Positions 40,562-43,572 of a stretch of DNA of 64,000 nt are shown here, piece after piece; within the stretch, counting starts at the first letter, position 1; each line of letters opens with the position of its first letter. The notes under the pieces are model-generated. The model made no database searches. It saw nothing but the letters and a program-made list of their open reading frames with translations, and was not told where the DNA came from. The stretch lies in NCBI RefSeq assembly GCF_900111025.1, contig NZ_FOFN01000001.1, positions 620,001 through 684,000 of the forward strand, written 5' to 3'. The position numbers and the translations under genes are program-made. The DNA is from Hyunsoonleella jejuensis. Its GTDB lineage: Bacteria > Bacteroidota > Bacteroidia > Flavobacteriales > Flavobacteriaceae.

Positions 40562-42460
40562 ATGAGCGATGCTTTAAAACATGAATGCGGAATCGCACTC
40601 ATAAGACTTAAAAAACCATTAGAGTATTATAAGGAAAAATATGGGAGTGCATTTTATGGTGTAAATAAAATGTACCTCATGATGGAAAAACAGCATAACC
40701 GCGGACAAGATGGTGCTGGTTTTGCGAGTATTAAACTAGATGTAAAACCAGGGCAACGTTATATAAGTAGAGTTAGGTCTATTGCACAACAGCCTATTCA
40801 AGATATTTTCGATCAAATAAACGAGCGCATAAATAATGAGTTTAAAAATCATCCAGAATATAATGATGATGTGGCGCTTCAAAAGAAAAACATTCCATAT
40901 ATAGGTGAGTTACTTTTAGGTCACGTGCGCTATGGTACTTTCGGAAAGAACAGTGTGGAGAGTGTACACCCGTTCTTAAGACAAAATAATTGGATGCACA
41001 GAAACCTAATTATGGCGGGGAACTTTAATATGACAAATGTTAAGGAACTGTTTCAAAACTTAATTGAGTTGGGACAGCATCCAAAAGAATATACAGACAC
41101 CATTACGGTAATGGAAAAAATCGGTCATTTTTTAGATGACGCTGTTAGTAAAATTTACAAGAATTTAAAGAAAGAAGGCTATAATAAACAACAAGCATCG
41201 CCATTAATAGCTGAACGTCTTAAAGTATCTAAAATACTAAAAAGAGCTGCAAAAAATTGGGATGGTGGCTATGCTATGGCAGGATTAATTGGTCATGGTG
41301 ATTCTTTCGTCTTGAGAGACCCAGCGGGCATTAGACCTTGTTATTATTACAGTGATGACGAAGTTATAGTTGTGGCTTCAGAGCGTCCGGTTATACAAAC
41401 GGTGTTCAATGTGAAGTTTGAGGATGTAAATGAGCTGCCACCAGGACATGCCATTATCACAAAAAAATCTGGAGACTTTTCTATAAAGAAAATTTTAGAG
41501 CCTTTAGAACGAAAATCTTGCTCATTTGAGCGTATTTATTTTTCCAGAGGAAGTGATGCTGAAATTTATCAAGAGCGCAAAATGCTTGGTAAATTATTAA
41601 TGCCTAAAGTATTGAAAGCTATAGAGGGTGATTTAAAAAACTCTGTCTTCTCATATATTCCTAATACTGCAGAAACATCCTTCTTTGGAATGATTGAAAC
41701 AGCAGAGTCTGAGCTTAATAAAAAGAAAACCGACACCATTTTAAACGGTAAACGCAATATTTCTGCTGAAGAAGTTACACAAATTTTATCCGAGCGTATT
41801 CGTGTTGAAAAAATCGCGATTAAAGATGTTAAGCTTAGGACGTTTATAACCGAAGATAGTAGTCGTGATGATTTAGTAGCACACGTTTATGATATTACTT
41901 ATGGAGTAATAAAGCCAAACGACAATTTAGTGATTATCGATGACAGTATTGTTAGAGGTACAACACTTAAAAAGAGTATTCTAAAAATGCTGGACAGATT
42001 GAATCCTAAGCGCATAGTTGTGGTGTCCTCTGCCCCACAGATACGTTATCCGGATTGTTATGGTATAGATATGGCCCGTCTTGAGGATTTAGTCGCGTTT
42101 CGGGCAGCTTTAGCGTTACTGAAAGACCATAACAAGTACCACATAGTAGAAGATGTTTATAAAAAATGTAAAGCTCAAGAAGATTTTGAGGATAAGAACG
42201 TTCAGAACTATGTAAAAGAAATTTACGATTCCTTTACAGATGATGAAATTTCTATAAAAATCTCTGAACTGTTAAGCGATACATCTATTAAGGCTGAAGT
42301 GAAAATACTTTTTCAGCCAGTAGAAAATCTTCATAGAGCTTGTCCAGAACACTTGGGAGATTGGTATTTTACAGGTAATTATCCTACCGACGGTGGTAAT
42401 AGAGTAGTAAATAGAGCATTCCTTAATTTTTACGAAGGCAATAAAGAAAGAGCATATTAA
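40562..42460 (+). CDS. purF: Amidophosphoribosyltransferase (long form)
   Basis: 632 residues, longer than the ~500 of classical PurF. It is a class II glutamine amidotransferase: the nucleophile is Cys9 in KHECGIALI, so a short propeptide must be removed, and HNRGQDGAGFA is conserved. The PRPP loop is VIIDDSIVRGTTLKKSIL. Insertions relative to shorter forms are seen at about residues 60-100 and 340-420. The product is phosphoribosylamine, the first committed step of purine synthesis. Separated from the PfkB gene by a terminator; the 65-bp gap also contains a short palindromic stretch (TTCCGCGATAGCGAAA) that may be a repeat remnant or leader hairpin. Confidence 0.93.
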   Translation: MSDALKHECGIALIRLKKPLEYYKEKYGSAFYGVNKMYLMMEKQHNRGQDGAGFASIKLDVKPGQRYISRVRSIAQQPIQDIFDQINERINNEFKNHPEYNDDVALQKKNIPYIGELLLGHVRYGTFGKNSVESVHPFLRQNNWMHRNLIMAGNFNMTNVKELFQNLIELGQHPKEYTDTITVMEKIGHFLDDAVSKIYKNLKKEGYNKQQASPLIAERLKVSKILKRAAKNWDGGYAMAGLIGHGDSFVLRDPAGIRPCYYYSDDEVIVVASERPVIQTVFNVKFEDVNELPPGHAIITKKSGDFSIKKILEPLERKSCSFERIYFSRGSDAEIYQERKMLGKLLMPKVLKAIEGDLKNSVFSYIPNTAETSFFGMIETAESELNKKKTDTILNGKRNISAEEVTQILSERIRVEKIAIKDVKLRTFITEDSSRDDLVAHVYDITYGVIKPNDNLVIIDDSIVRGTTLKKSILKMLDRLNPKRIVVVSSAPQIRYPDCYGIDMARLEDLVAFRAALALLKDHNKYHIVEDVYKKCKAQEDFEDKNVQNYVKEIYDSFTDDEISIKISELLSDTSIKAEVKILFQPVENLHRACPEHLGDWYFTGNYPTDGGNRVVNRAFLNFYEGNKERAY

Positions 42461-42574
42461 TTATTAATTTGATAATTTGGTTTGCGGTTAAACTATAAAT
42501 CATGCATTTTGCCTGATAAATGCGCAATTCATCTAATAAATATTCTGATTATCCGAAAATAGACATAAATTGGT

Positions 42575-42650
42575 CTCACCATAACATAAGTAGGTTAAGT
42601 TCATGGTAGATTTGGGGCAAAAAAAGGTGAACGTTAGTTCGCCTTTTTTT
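42575..42650 (+). ncRNA. Candidate small RNA gene, copy 1 of a tandem pair
   Basis: A ~76-nt unit begins with a 44-nt block that is repeated with one mismatch 252 bp further on. It then has a hairpin GGTGAAC/GTTCGCC (42626-42643) and a T-run. The block contains a potential imperfect stem: ACCAT at its start can pair with ATGGT. Copy 2 has ACC where this copy has GCC in the hairpin, a change that keeps pairing (U-G versus U-A). A possible -7-like TAAATTGG precedes it. No ORF. Comparison to Rfam Flavo-1 is suggested. Confidence 0.6.
42626..42650 (+). terminator. Intrinsic terminator of small RNA copy 1
   Basis: A 7-bp stem with one G-U pair, a 4-nt loop, and seven Ts at 42644-42650. An A-run before the stem makes it partly bidirectional. 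Confidence 0.75.
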
Positions 42651-42817
42651 ATGCAATCCTATGAATAATATTGAACAAAAGTTAAGATTACAATATTGTC
42701 TTAATAATTGAATTTCCTGATAGTATAGCCATTCGTCTATATTTTATAACCTTATTTCCTTTAAGCCAATTTATAAGCAGTTCAGCCAAAATATTTTCGC
42801 ATGCTTTAATAGCAATA

Positions 42818-42825
42818 TATATTTG
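42818..42825 (+). promoter_or_regulatory. -7 promoter element of small RNA copy 2
   Basis: TATATTTG, a perfect TAnnTTTG match, directly precedes the repeated block (starts 42827). This places the expected transcription start in the first bases of the block. A -33 element around 42794-42800 is not clear. Confidence 0.6.
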
Positions 42826-42826
42826 A

Positions 42827-42900
42827 CTCACCATAACATAAGTAGGTTAAGTTTATGGTAGATTTGGGGCAAAAAGGTGAACTGCAAAGTTCACCTTTTT
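42827..42900 (+). ncRNA. Candidate small RNA gene, copy 2 of a tandem pair
   Basis: A ~74-nt unit shares the 44-nt block with copy 1 (one C/T difference at 42854 against 42602) and ends in a perfect hairpin GGTGAAC/GTTCACC with five Ts. The conservation covers the block and the stem, while loop sequences differ (TGCAAA here, GTTA in copy 1), as expected for a structured RNA rather than a recent simple duplication. A perfect -7 element lies directly upstream. The region has no reading frame. Function unknown. Confidence 0.65.
42876..42900 (+). terminator. Intrinsic terminator of small RNA copy 2
   Basis: Perfect 7-bp stem GGTGAAC/GTTCACC, 6-nt loop, five Ts at 42896-42900. Confidence 0.8.
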
Positions 42901-42911
42901 CATTTTAAGCC

Positions 42912-42963: not shown

Positions 42964-43572
42964 TTACTTCGCTTCTGCATAACGTTTTTCAACCTCGTTC
43001 CAGTTAATAACATTAAAAAATGCATTAATATAGTCTGGTCTGCGGTTTTGGTAATTCAAATAGTAGGCATGCTCCCAAACATCAATTCCTAAAATTGGAG
43101 TGCCGCCACAACCGATTCCTGGCATTAATGGATTGTCTTGATTTGCCGTAGAGCAAATATCTACCTTTCCACCCTTGTGTACGCACAACCAAGCCCAACC
43201 TGAACCAAATTGTGTAGCCGCAGCTTTCGAGAAAGCATCCATAAACCCTTCTTTAGAGCCAAAAGCTACTTCTATAGCGTCCTTTAGCTCTCCAGATAAA
43301 TAACCTTTGCCTTCAGGATTCATAACACTCCAAAATAAAGAGTGGTTATAAAATCCGCCACCGTTGTTTCTAACAGCGCCGTTGCTCATATCTAAATTGG
43401 TAAGAATGTCTTCAATAGATTTTCCATCTAAATCGGTGCCTTCAATAGCAGCGTTTAATTTACTTGTATATCCTGCATGGTGCTTAGAATGGTGTATCTC
43501 CATTGTTCTTGCATCTATATGAGGTTCTAAAGCATCATATGCGTAACCTAATTCTGGTAATTCAAAAGCCAT
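42964..43572 (-). CDS. Superoxide dismutase, Fe/Mn family
   Basis: 202 residues. Metal ligands are His27 in MEIHHSKHH, His77 in [10 protein letters not shown], Asp164 and His168 in [11 protein letters not shown]. It converts superoxide to oxygen and peroxide in the cytoplasm (no signal peptide). Iron versus manganese cannot be decided reliably from the sequence. Single-gene unit with its own terminator, convergent with the small RNA candidates. Confidence 0.96.

Follow-up and report, generated by a model that had tools for sequence, protein, structure and literature searches.

In the genome of Hyunsoonleella jejuensis (Flavobacteriaceae), two near-identical units lie in tandem between purF and the superoxide dismutase (SOD) gene, within an analysed stretch of 64,000 nt (contig NZ_FOFN01000001.1, positions 620,001 to 684,000, referred to here as the window; positions are counted from its first letter). 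We propose that the units are probably genes of one family of trans-acting antisense small RNAs (sRNAs) of about 75 nt that represses the mRNA of an unlinked small-protein gene, with a shared regulator acting on both. The proposal was reached by sequence comparison and draws on the genes themselves, their conservation and synteny, their terminators, the complementarity, the coding selection on the target and the similarity of the upstream repeats; from these we infer that the units are transcribed, that they repress and do not activate their target, and that one regulator is shared. The initial annotation had called the pair candidate small RNA genes, a view that their conservation, synteny, changing yet paired terminators and promoter structure strongly support, although its suggestion of the Flavo-1 motif did not hold. 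What it observed was right and understated, since it included neither the repeats upstream nor the complementary gene far away.

In the proposed mechanism, a regulator would bind a pair of direct repeats immediately above the promoter and control both sRNA genes, and the small-protein promoter, with the same repeats, would be under the same control. The near-invariant 5′ ~46 nt of the sRNA would pair with the leader and start codon of the ~40-codon mRNA and block the ribosome, so that a small helical protein would be kept low or delayed. Two hallmarks of trans-acting base-pairing sRNAs were found, an own promoter with an intrinsic terminator (by sequence only) and complementarity to an unlinked mRNA that is conserved beyond chance. 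We further suggest, more tentatively and as a proposition that could well fail, a family-wide, vertically fixed circuit in which one regulator would control the sRNA array and the small-protein mRNA with its multi-site leader as an incoherent feed-forward or mutual titration loop, the unlinked, near-full-length antisense partners having co-evolved and operator-controlled secreted-protein mRNAs being secondary targets.

What is new here is a predicted target for this sRNA family. A literature search of titles and the starts of abstracts, with most subscription papers and supplements outside its scope, returned none naming the sRNA or the target. Few flavobacterial sRNAs have an assigned target, Rfp18 being an example (PMC9723704, in the part available). 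The present sRNA was found in the majority of the family's genera that were sampled, as a rule at a fixed locus and with an almost invariant body, and has a concrete predicted target, which gives a directly testable sRNA-mRNA pair in a genome without an RRM_1 match. In this bacterial group translation initiation differs from the Shine-Dalgarno type (PMC9723704, same part).

Complementarity to the leader of an unlinked small-protein gene

The two units, and the regions in them predicted to pair with the small-protein mRNA, are as follows.

42575..42651, + strand: sRNA copy 1, on the purF side, variable base C at 42602
42827..42901, + strand: sRNA copy 2, on the SOD side, variable base U at 42854
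42578..42623, + strand: segment of copy 1 complementary to leader and start codon of the small-protein mRNA (sRNA nt 4-49, duplex -41.7 kcal/mol)
42830..42875, + strand: segment of copy 2 complementary to leader and start codon of the small-protein mRNA (sRNA nt 4-49, duplex -45.8 kcal/mol)

Reverse-strand matches to the sRNA recurred at one type of short gene. In H. jejuensis this gene (G000:C2:266410-266529) has 40 codons, lies 396 kb from the sRNA units and encodes MAPNLPEQPTRKESKIKETLNEQIRFVKGFLYLTKKIFML; in this genome and ten others of the same genus its flanks, as judged by eye, are an ABC-transporter gene and an acetoacetyl-CoA-synthetase-like gene. The H. jejuensis leader stretch facing sRNA nt 4-49, CCCCAAAUCUAUCAUAAACUUAAAAAACUUAUAGAUAUGGC, continues through the start codon and is near-complementary over ~46 nt, with a duplex of -45.8 against about -19 for shuffles of the same leader. 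The variable C/U base of the sRNA faces A or G in the leader sites (by eye). When leader and early open reading frame (ORF) were taken together, 52 of 61 sequences paired with the sRNA better than all 100 of their dinucleotide shuffles. With the leader alone, this was true of 45/52, and 48/52 were within 5 of 100; the best leader-only duplex covered the assigned ATG in 45 of the 52. The reversed sRNA, used as a control, placed no leader above all shuffles (0/52) and two within 5 of 100 (2/52). A search of the H. jejuensis genome with the 18-mer seed complement, allowing up to 3 mismatches, gave 11 matches against 1 for the reversed control: the 2 sRNAs, 1 small-protein leader, 1 weak leader match (L063) and 7 positions opposite coding genes. 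The latter 7 were rejected for their wrong orientation, as were some matches in other genomes at what appear by eye to be rpsC-like genes.

Sites for the sRNA were also found in other settings. At L197 (G003:C15:169682-171057), TTGCCCCAAATCTACCCTAT stands directly before the ATG of a secreted-repeat-protein-like ORF (duplex -36.0, 0/100 shuffles as good), possibly a second target in one species as far as the sequence indicates. At L054 (G001:C7:113371-114393, about 470-560 on the + strand), an RNA-like unit complementary to the sRNA has a TAAATTTG box and a terminator (duplex -31.5, 0/100 shuffles as good, one genome) and may be a stand-alone antisense RNA, a candidate sponge. L041 (G016:C12:30372-31429) keeps two near-perfect sites in a genome that gave no small-protein match to the protein profile.

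In several genera the sRNA sites are repeated within one leader; a loose site pattern matched 7 times in the leader of L237 and 7 times in that of L245. Such many-site leaders would also suit a small-protein mRNA that is mainly a sponge, whose repeated leader sites titrate the sRNAs while the important targets are other mRNAs, and the sites of L041, L054 and L197 point the same way. We regard this as unlikely, since purifying selection acts on the ORF (dN/dS about 0.15), the best duplex covers the small-protein start codon in 45/52 cases, and other operator-linked genes pair modestly with the sRNA (3/14 against 1/14 controls, see below).

The small protein and its co-occurrence with the sRNA

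The family was sampled evenly with 149 genomes from 148 genera, and a protein profile found the small-protein gene in 67 of them. All 67 were sRNA-positive, and 0 of the 28 sRNA-negative genomes had the small protein (Fisher p 4.6e-9, a significance inflated by uncorrected shared ancestry). The 49 strongest small-protein matches gave the same picture (p 3.7e-6, likewise inflated by shared ancestry). Over codons 7-37 of 21 gap-free sequences, dN was 0.23 and dS 1.49, and the resulting dN/dS of about 0.15 makes it very likely that the small peptide is real. In the NLPEQPT codons, which overlap a further sRNA site, dS was 0.25 versus 1.3-1.8 elsewhere in the same sequences, a drop that is the mark expected of RNA-level constraint. 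Searches against Pfam (2 proteins) and NCBIfam (15 members) returned no match, and the analysis brings to light a small protein unmatched in either collection.

The protein has 40 residues and was predicted as a single helix over residues 10-39 (mean pLDDT 80.4, pTM 0.40). Together with the long antisense pairing, and with a protein gene that was never found without the sRNA in the 149 genomes, this prediction could fit an arrangement like a type I toxin-antitoxin system, with a growth-inhibiting amphipathic helix and the sRNAs as trans-encoded antitoxin. The toxins of type I systems are small peptides, as a rule hydrophobic and membrane-bound. We consider such an arrangement rather improbable: the helix is modest both in hydrophobic moment, which reaches 0.34, and in mean hydrophobicity, with a maximum of -0.01 over 18 residues; in 54 genomes the sRNA is present but no protein gene was detected; and the sRNA and protein genes are unlinked. 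This alternative and the sponge both share the pairing step with antisense repression of the small-protein mRNA.

Repeats upstream of both proposed partners

Alignment of the regions upstream of the sRNAs revealed a pair of direct repeats spaced by 20 bp and close above the promoter; they were derived from 185 of 245 copies not of type 3 (see below). In the window they correspond to two features.

42503..42540, + strand: putative operator of copy 1, two direct repeats (TGCnTTTnATCnnAT) with a 20-bp period; profile R2 at G000:C2:662503-662540, 25.6 bits, the sequence itself being a row of alignment A3
42758..42793, + strand: putative operator of copy 2; profile R2, 26 bits, E 6.4e-07 in the window

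When R2 was run on the window only, the second half of the copy 1 operator alone was listed (42523-42540, E 0.23). When a matrix built from the sRNA genes alone was applied to the regions upstream of 61 small-protein genes, the phased repeat was better than in all 50 shuffles in 43 of them, and the joint consensus of sRNA and small-protein genes is TGCATTTnATCnAATAAATATGCnTTTnATCTAATATA. LytTR-type operators consist of two direct repeats like [TA][AC][CA]GTTN[AG][TG], about two helical turns apart. The TGCnTTTnATC repeats with their 20-bp period presumably resemble LytTR half-sites, a partial fit and not an established one.

The repeats recur within single genomes: at E up to 1, eight genomes of the same genus have 39-48 sites each, compared to 6-17 in four genomes of other families, one of which (G039) has a single strong match. 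About half of the 14 sites read in H. jejuensis (L304-L317) stand before lipoprotein-like or secreted-protein ORFs (by eye), and the operator-like repeats possibly mark a large regulon of the putative regulator. Pairing of the sRNA with other operator-linked leaders is only suggestive, 3/14 downstream regions reaching ≤5/100 shuffles compared to 1/14 upstream controls.

Several observations weigh against antisense repression of the small-protein mRNA as the function of these sRNAs. The protein profile gives no small-protein match in 54 sRNA-positive genomes, where the target would have to be diverged, lost or another. In 9 of 61 cases the leader was not above all shuffles, 8 of these 9 being partial (C-terminal) profile matches, and upstream of 18/61 small-protein genes the repeat was not above all shuffles. 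Furthermore, the small-protein seed alignment was built from genes first noticed through their complementarity to the sRNA, so that the evidence from the peptide and that from the sites are not fully independent, a reservation that applies less to the leader-only test; and the 21 sequences behind the dS of 0.25 were chosen by a rule requiring NL[PSH][EK], which favours those residues, not third bases.

Structure, conservation and synteny of the sRNA units

Both units consist of a -7 box, an almost invariant body of ~46 nt and a T-tailed terminator hairpin. The sequence 42565-42623 is repeated at 42817-42875 with 93% identity over 59 nt and a spacing of 252, and from 42575/42827 onward a single C/T difference (42602/42854) separates the copy bodies; the 44-nt block described in the initial annotation as recurring with one mismatch was thus seen again. 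The elements of the units and their usual neighbours are:

42566..42573, + strand: -7 box of copy 1, TAAATTGG, a weak form of TAnnTTTG (window sequence)
42818..42825, + strand: -7 box of copy 2, TATATTTG (window sequence, conserved among copies)
42578..42607, + strand: 5′ hairpin of copy 1 with loop GUAGG (centroid fold and consensus fold)
42619..42650, + strand: intrinsic terminator of copy 1 (arms, fold, family-wide pairing)
42871..42900, + strand: intrinsic terminator of copy 2 (arms, fold, family-wide pairing)
40562..42460, + strand: purF, usual left neighbour (ORF translation, synteny)
42964..43572, - strand: superoxide dismutase gene, usual right neighbour (ORF translation, synteny)

The position between purF and the SOD gene agrees with the earlier description, the two gene names in the window having been assigned by eye from translations. 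The promoter element reported directly before copy 2 is the box at 42818-42825, the form before copy 1 being weaker; across copies of the window's class it reads TAnnTTnG, which we take to be the Bacteroidota type of -7 box. As also noted earlier, the units lack a reading frame: no ORF of ≥30 aa lies within either, and a 48-codon ORF on the minus strand (42688-42834) shares 8 nt with the beginning of copy 2.

The terminator hairpins with their T-run and maintained pairing were likewise borne out, the arms being 93% complementary with one G-U in copy 1 (42619-42632/42637-42650) and 100% complementary in copy 2 (42871-42883/42888-42900). Compared to dinucleotide shuffles the units fold with z of -4.8 and -4.2, mainly owing to the terminator; the 5′ hairpin alone is weakly better than shuffles (z -1.9 and -1.6). 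A strong terminator hairpin was present in 270 of 282 copies, and its arm pairs came in 100 different forms if length variants are counted; terminators were scored copy by copy because the consensus fold on alignment A1 misaligned them. The covariation check proposed with the initial annotation came out in two ways: the terminator stems vary while remaining paired, but the pairs of the 5′ hairpin hardly vary, and covariation cannot prove that hairpin.

A BLAST search of 60 genomes, also proposed earlier, matched 30 of 37 in the window's own family (G015 weakly) and 0 of 23 others, and the 44-nt block did not turn out to be part of a protein gene or transposon end. With a covariance model the sRNA family was found in 121 of the 149 family genomes (107 of the 125 of good quality). 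Over 198 genomes of the class the model gave 6 matches, 4 in the family and 2 weak ones outside it (G210, G337), which were rejected as terminators without the body (by eye). A pattern scan of named genomes yielded at least 118 stretches; the 80 titles listed were all flavobacterial or unresolved Bacteroidetes (e.g., Maribacter, Zobellia, Aquimarina, Winogradskyella and Flavobacterium), and the listed stretch closest to the window was from Mariniflexile (74% identity).

The copies share the body ACCATAACATAAGTAGGTTAAGTT[C/T]ATGGTAGATTTGGGGCAAAAA, with CCATAGCATAAG and GGTAAGATT instead in a sister group. Among 43 body positions in 125 copies of the window's sequence type, variation in more than 5 copies was confined to the C/T base and one A/G position, a count partly conditioned by the fetching pattern, which fixed 22 positions, and by a script that required body parts. 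Near-invariance of the whole body including the 5′ hairpin would also suit an RNA that sequesters a protein (CsrB/6S-like) and resembles the leader incidentally. We think this very unlikely, as we do mere repeated terminators behind purF, because the complementarity is kept through leader evolution and the units have their own promoters and upstream repeats.

Loci hold one to six copies: among 146 exact-core loci (from two sources, not de-duplicated, in stretches of limited length) there were 62 with one copy, 45 with two, 19 with three, 13 with four, 5 with five and 2 with six. All 273 copies at purF-holding loci read in the direction of purF (273/273), and at the 98 loci holding both purF and the SOD gene all copies (226/226) lie between them; most other loci have only one neighbour within the stretch. 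Four copy-bearing loci (L072, L081, L107, L134) have none of the four neighbour genes tested, and the purF-SOD placement is thus usual, not universal. Copies outside the array exist (e.g., in G003, G005, G016, G017, G025 and G035), and in G018 a distance of 18 kb separates a copy next to purF from a copy next to the SOD gene. Of the 30 two-copy loci with both neighbours, 25 have C in the copy nearer purF and U in the copy nearer the SOD gene.

Copies of type 3 (GATTTGGGACGAAAA) stand on the SOD side in Maribacter/Zobellia-type loci such as L070, L075, L080 and L097. These sister-group copies (GATTTGGGA) are without the repeats and have instead a very conserved upstream block, ATTTCYCACAATACCAGTAATTTAG.

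Comparison with known RNA families and systems

An Rfam scan of the window found no family at gathering threshold, and phage records gave no match. STnc430, STnc40, STnc320, FopS, GibS and MicX all scored under gathering, and in the alignments shown it is largely the terminator that matches. Flavo-1 (RF01705), which the initial annotation had offered for comparison, is likewise an RNA motif of flavobacteria; a check with its covariance model found none in the window at gathering and none locally up to E 10. Elsewhere in the H. jejuensis genome it has 14 sites above the cut-off and 31 at E up to 1, and with none of the 14 in the window's stretch the identity was rejected.

FopS and GibS of Bacteroides (RF04319, RF04182) are similarly multicopy Bacteroidota sRNAs with a seed matching translation start regions (PMC11697453, available portion). 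The units might be divergent members of that family acting on SusC mRNAs with an RRM protein, and FopS also pairs at start codons according to the same portion of that paper; the sub-threshold FopS alignment of 22.8 bits shares UUCAUGGU..AGAUUU. This identity is nevertheless highly improbable and was rejected. The score is far under the gathering values of 56 and 115, other places in H. jejuensis score alike (24.7 and 22.9 bits), none of 31 genomes had a FopS match over the cut-off, and among the matches listed none was at the purF-SOD locus. No RRM_1 partner protein (RbpB-type) was matched in the H. jejuensis genome (0 matches, Bacteroides control positive). The seed-complement search met two SusC/TonB-like genes (by eye), but the matches fell within coding sequence and were wrongly oriented, with no systematic SusC scan made. 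In contrast to FopS and GibS, the units here have another predicted target and lie in tandem between purF and the SOD gene.

The Rfp RNAs of Flavobacterium psychrophilum are conserved flavobacterial RNAs as well (PMC9723704, part available). Rfp18 is predicted there to pair with protease mRNAs via a third stem-loop, whereas the units here have two hairpins; Rfp18 is thus set apart by description, and the units may yet coincide with one of the 85 new Rfp RNAs. By description, and as an analogy in mode of action, the sRNA system would work most like the csRNAs of Streptococcus, five highly similar, CiaR-dependent sRNAs that also are several near-identical sRNAs under one regulator; those of S. 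pneumoniae additively repress the mRNA of the small peptide precursor comC (PMC4507080, as far as its accessible text goes). The csRNAs differ in belonging to another phylum; what sets the present family apart is complementarity over 46 nt, the tandem arrangement of copies at a single locus, leaders with several sites, and repeats found upstream of both the sRNA genes and their predicted target.
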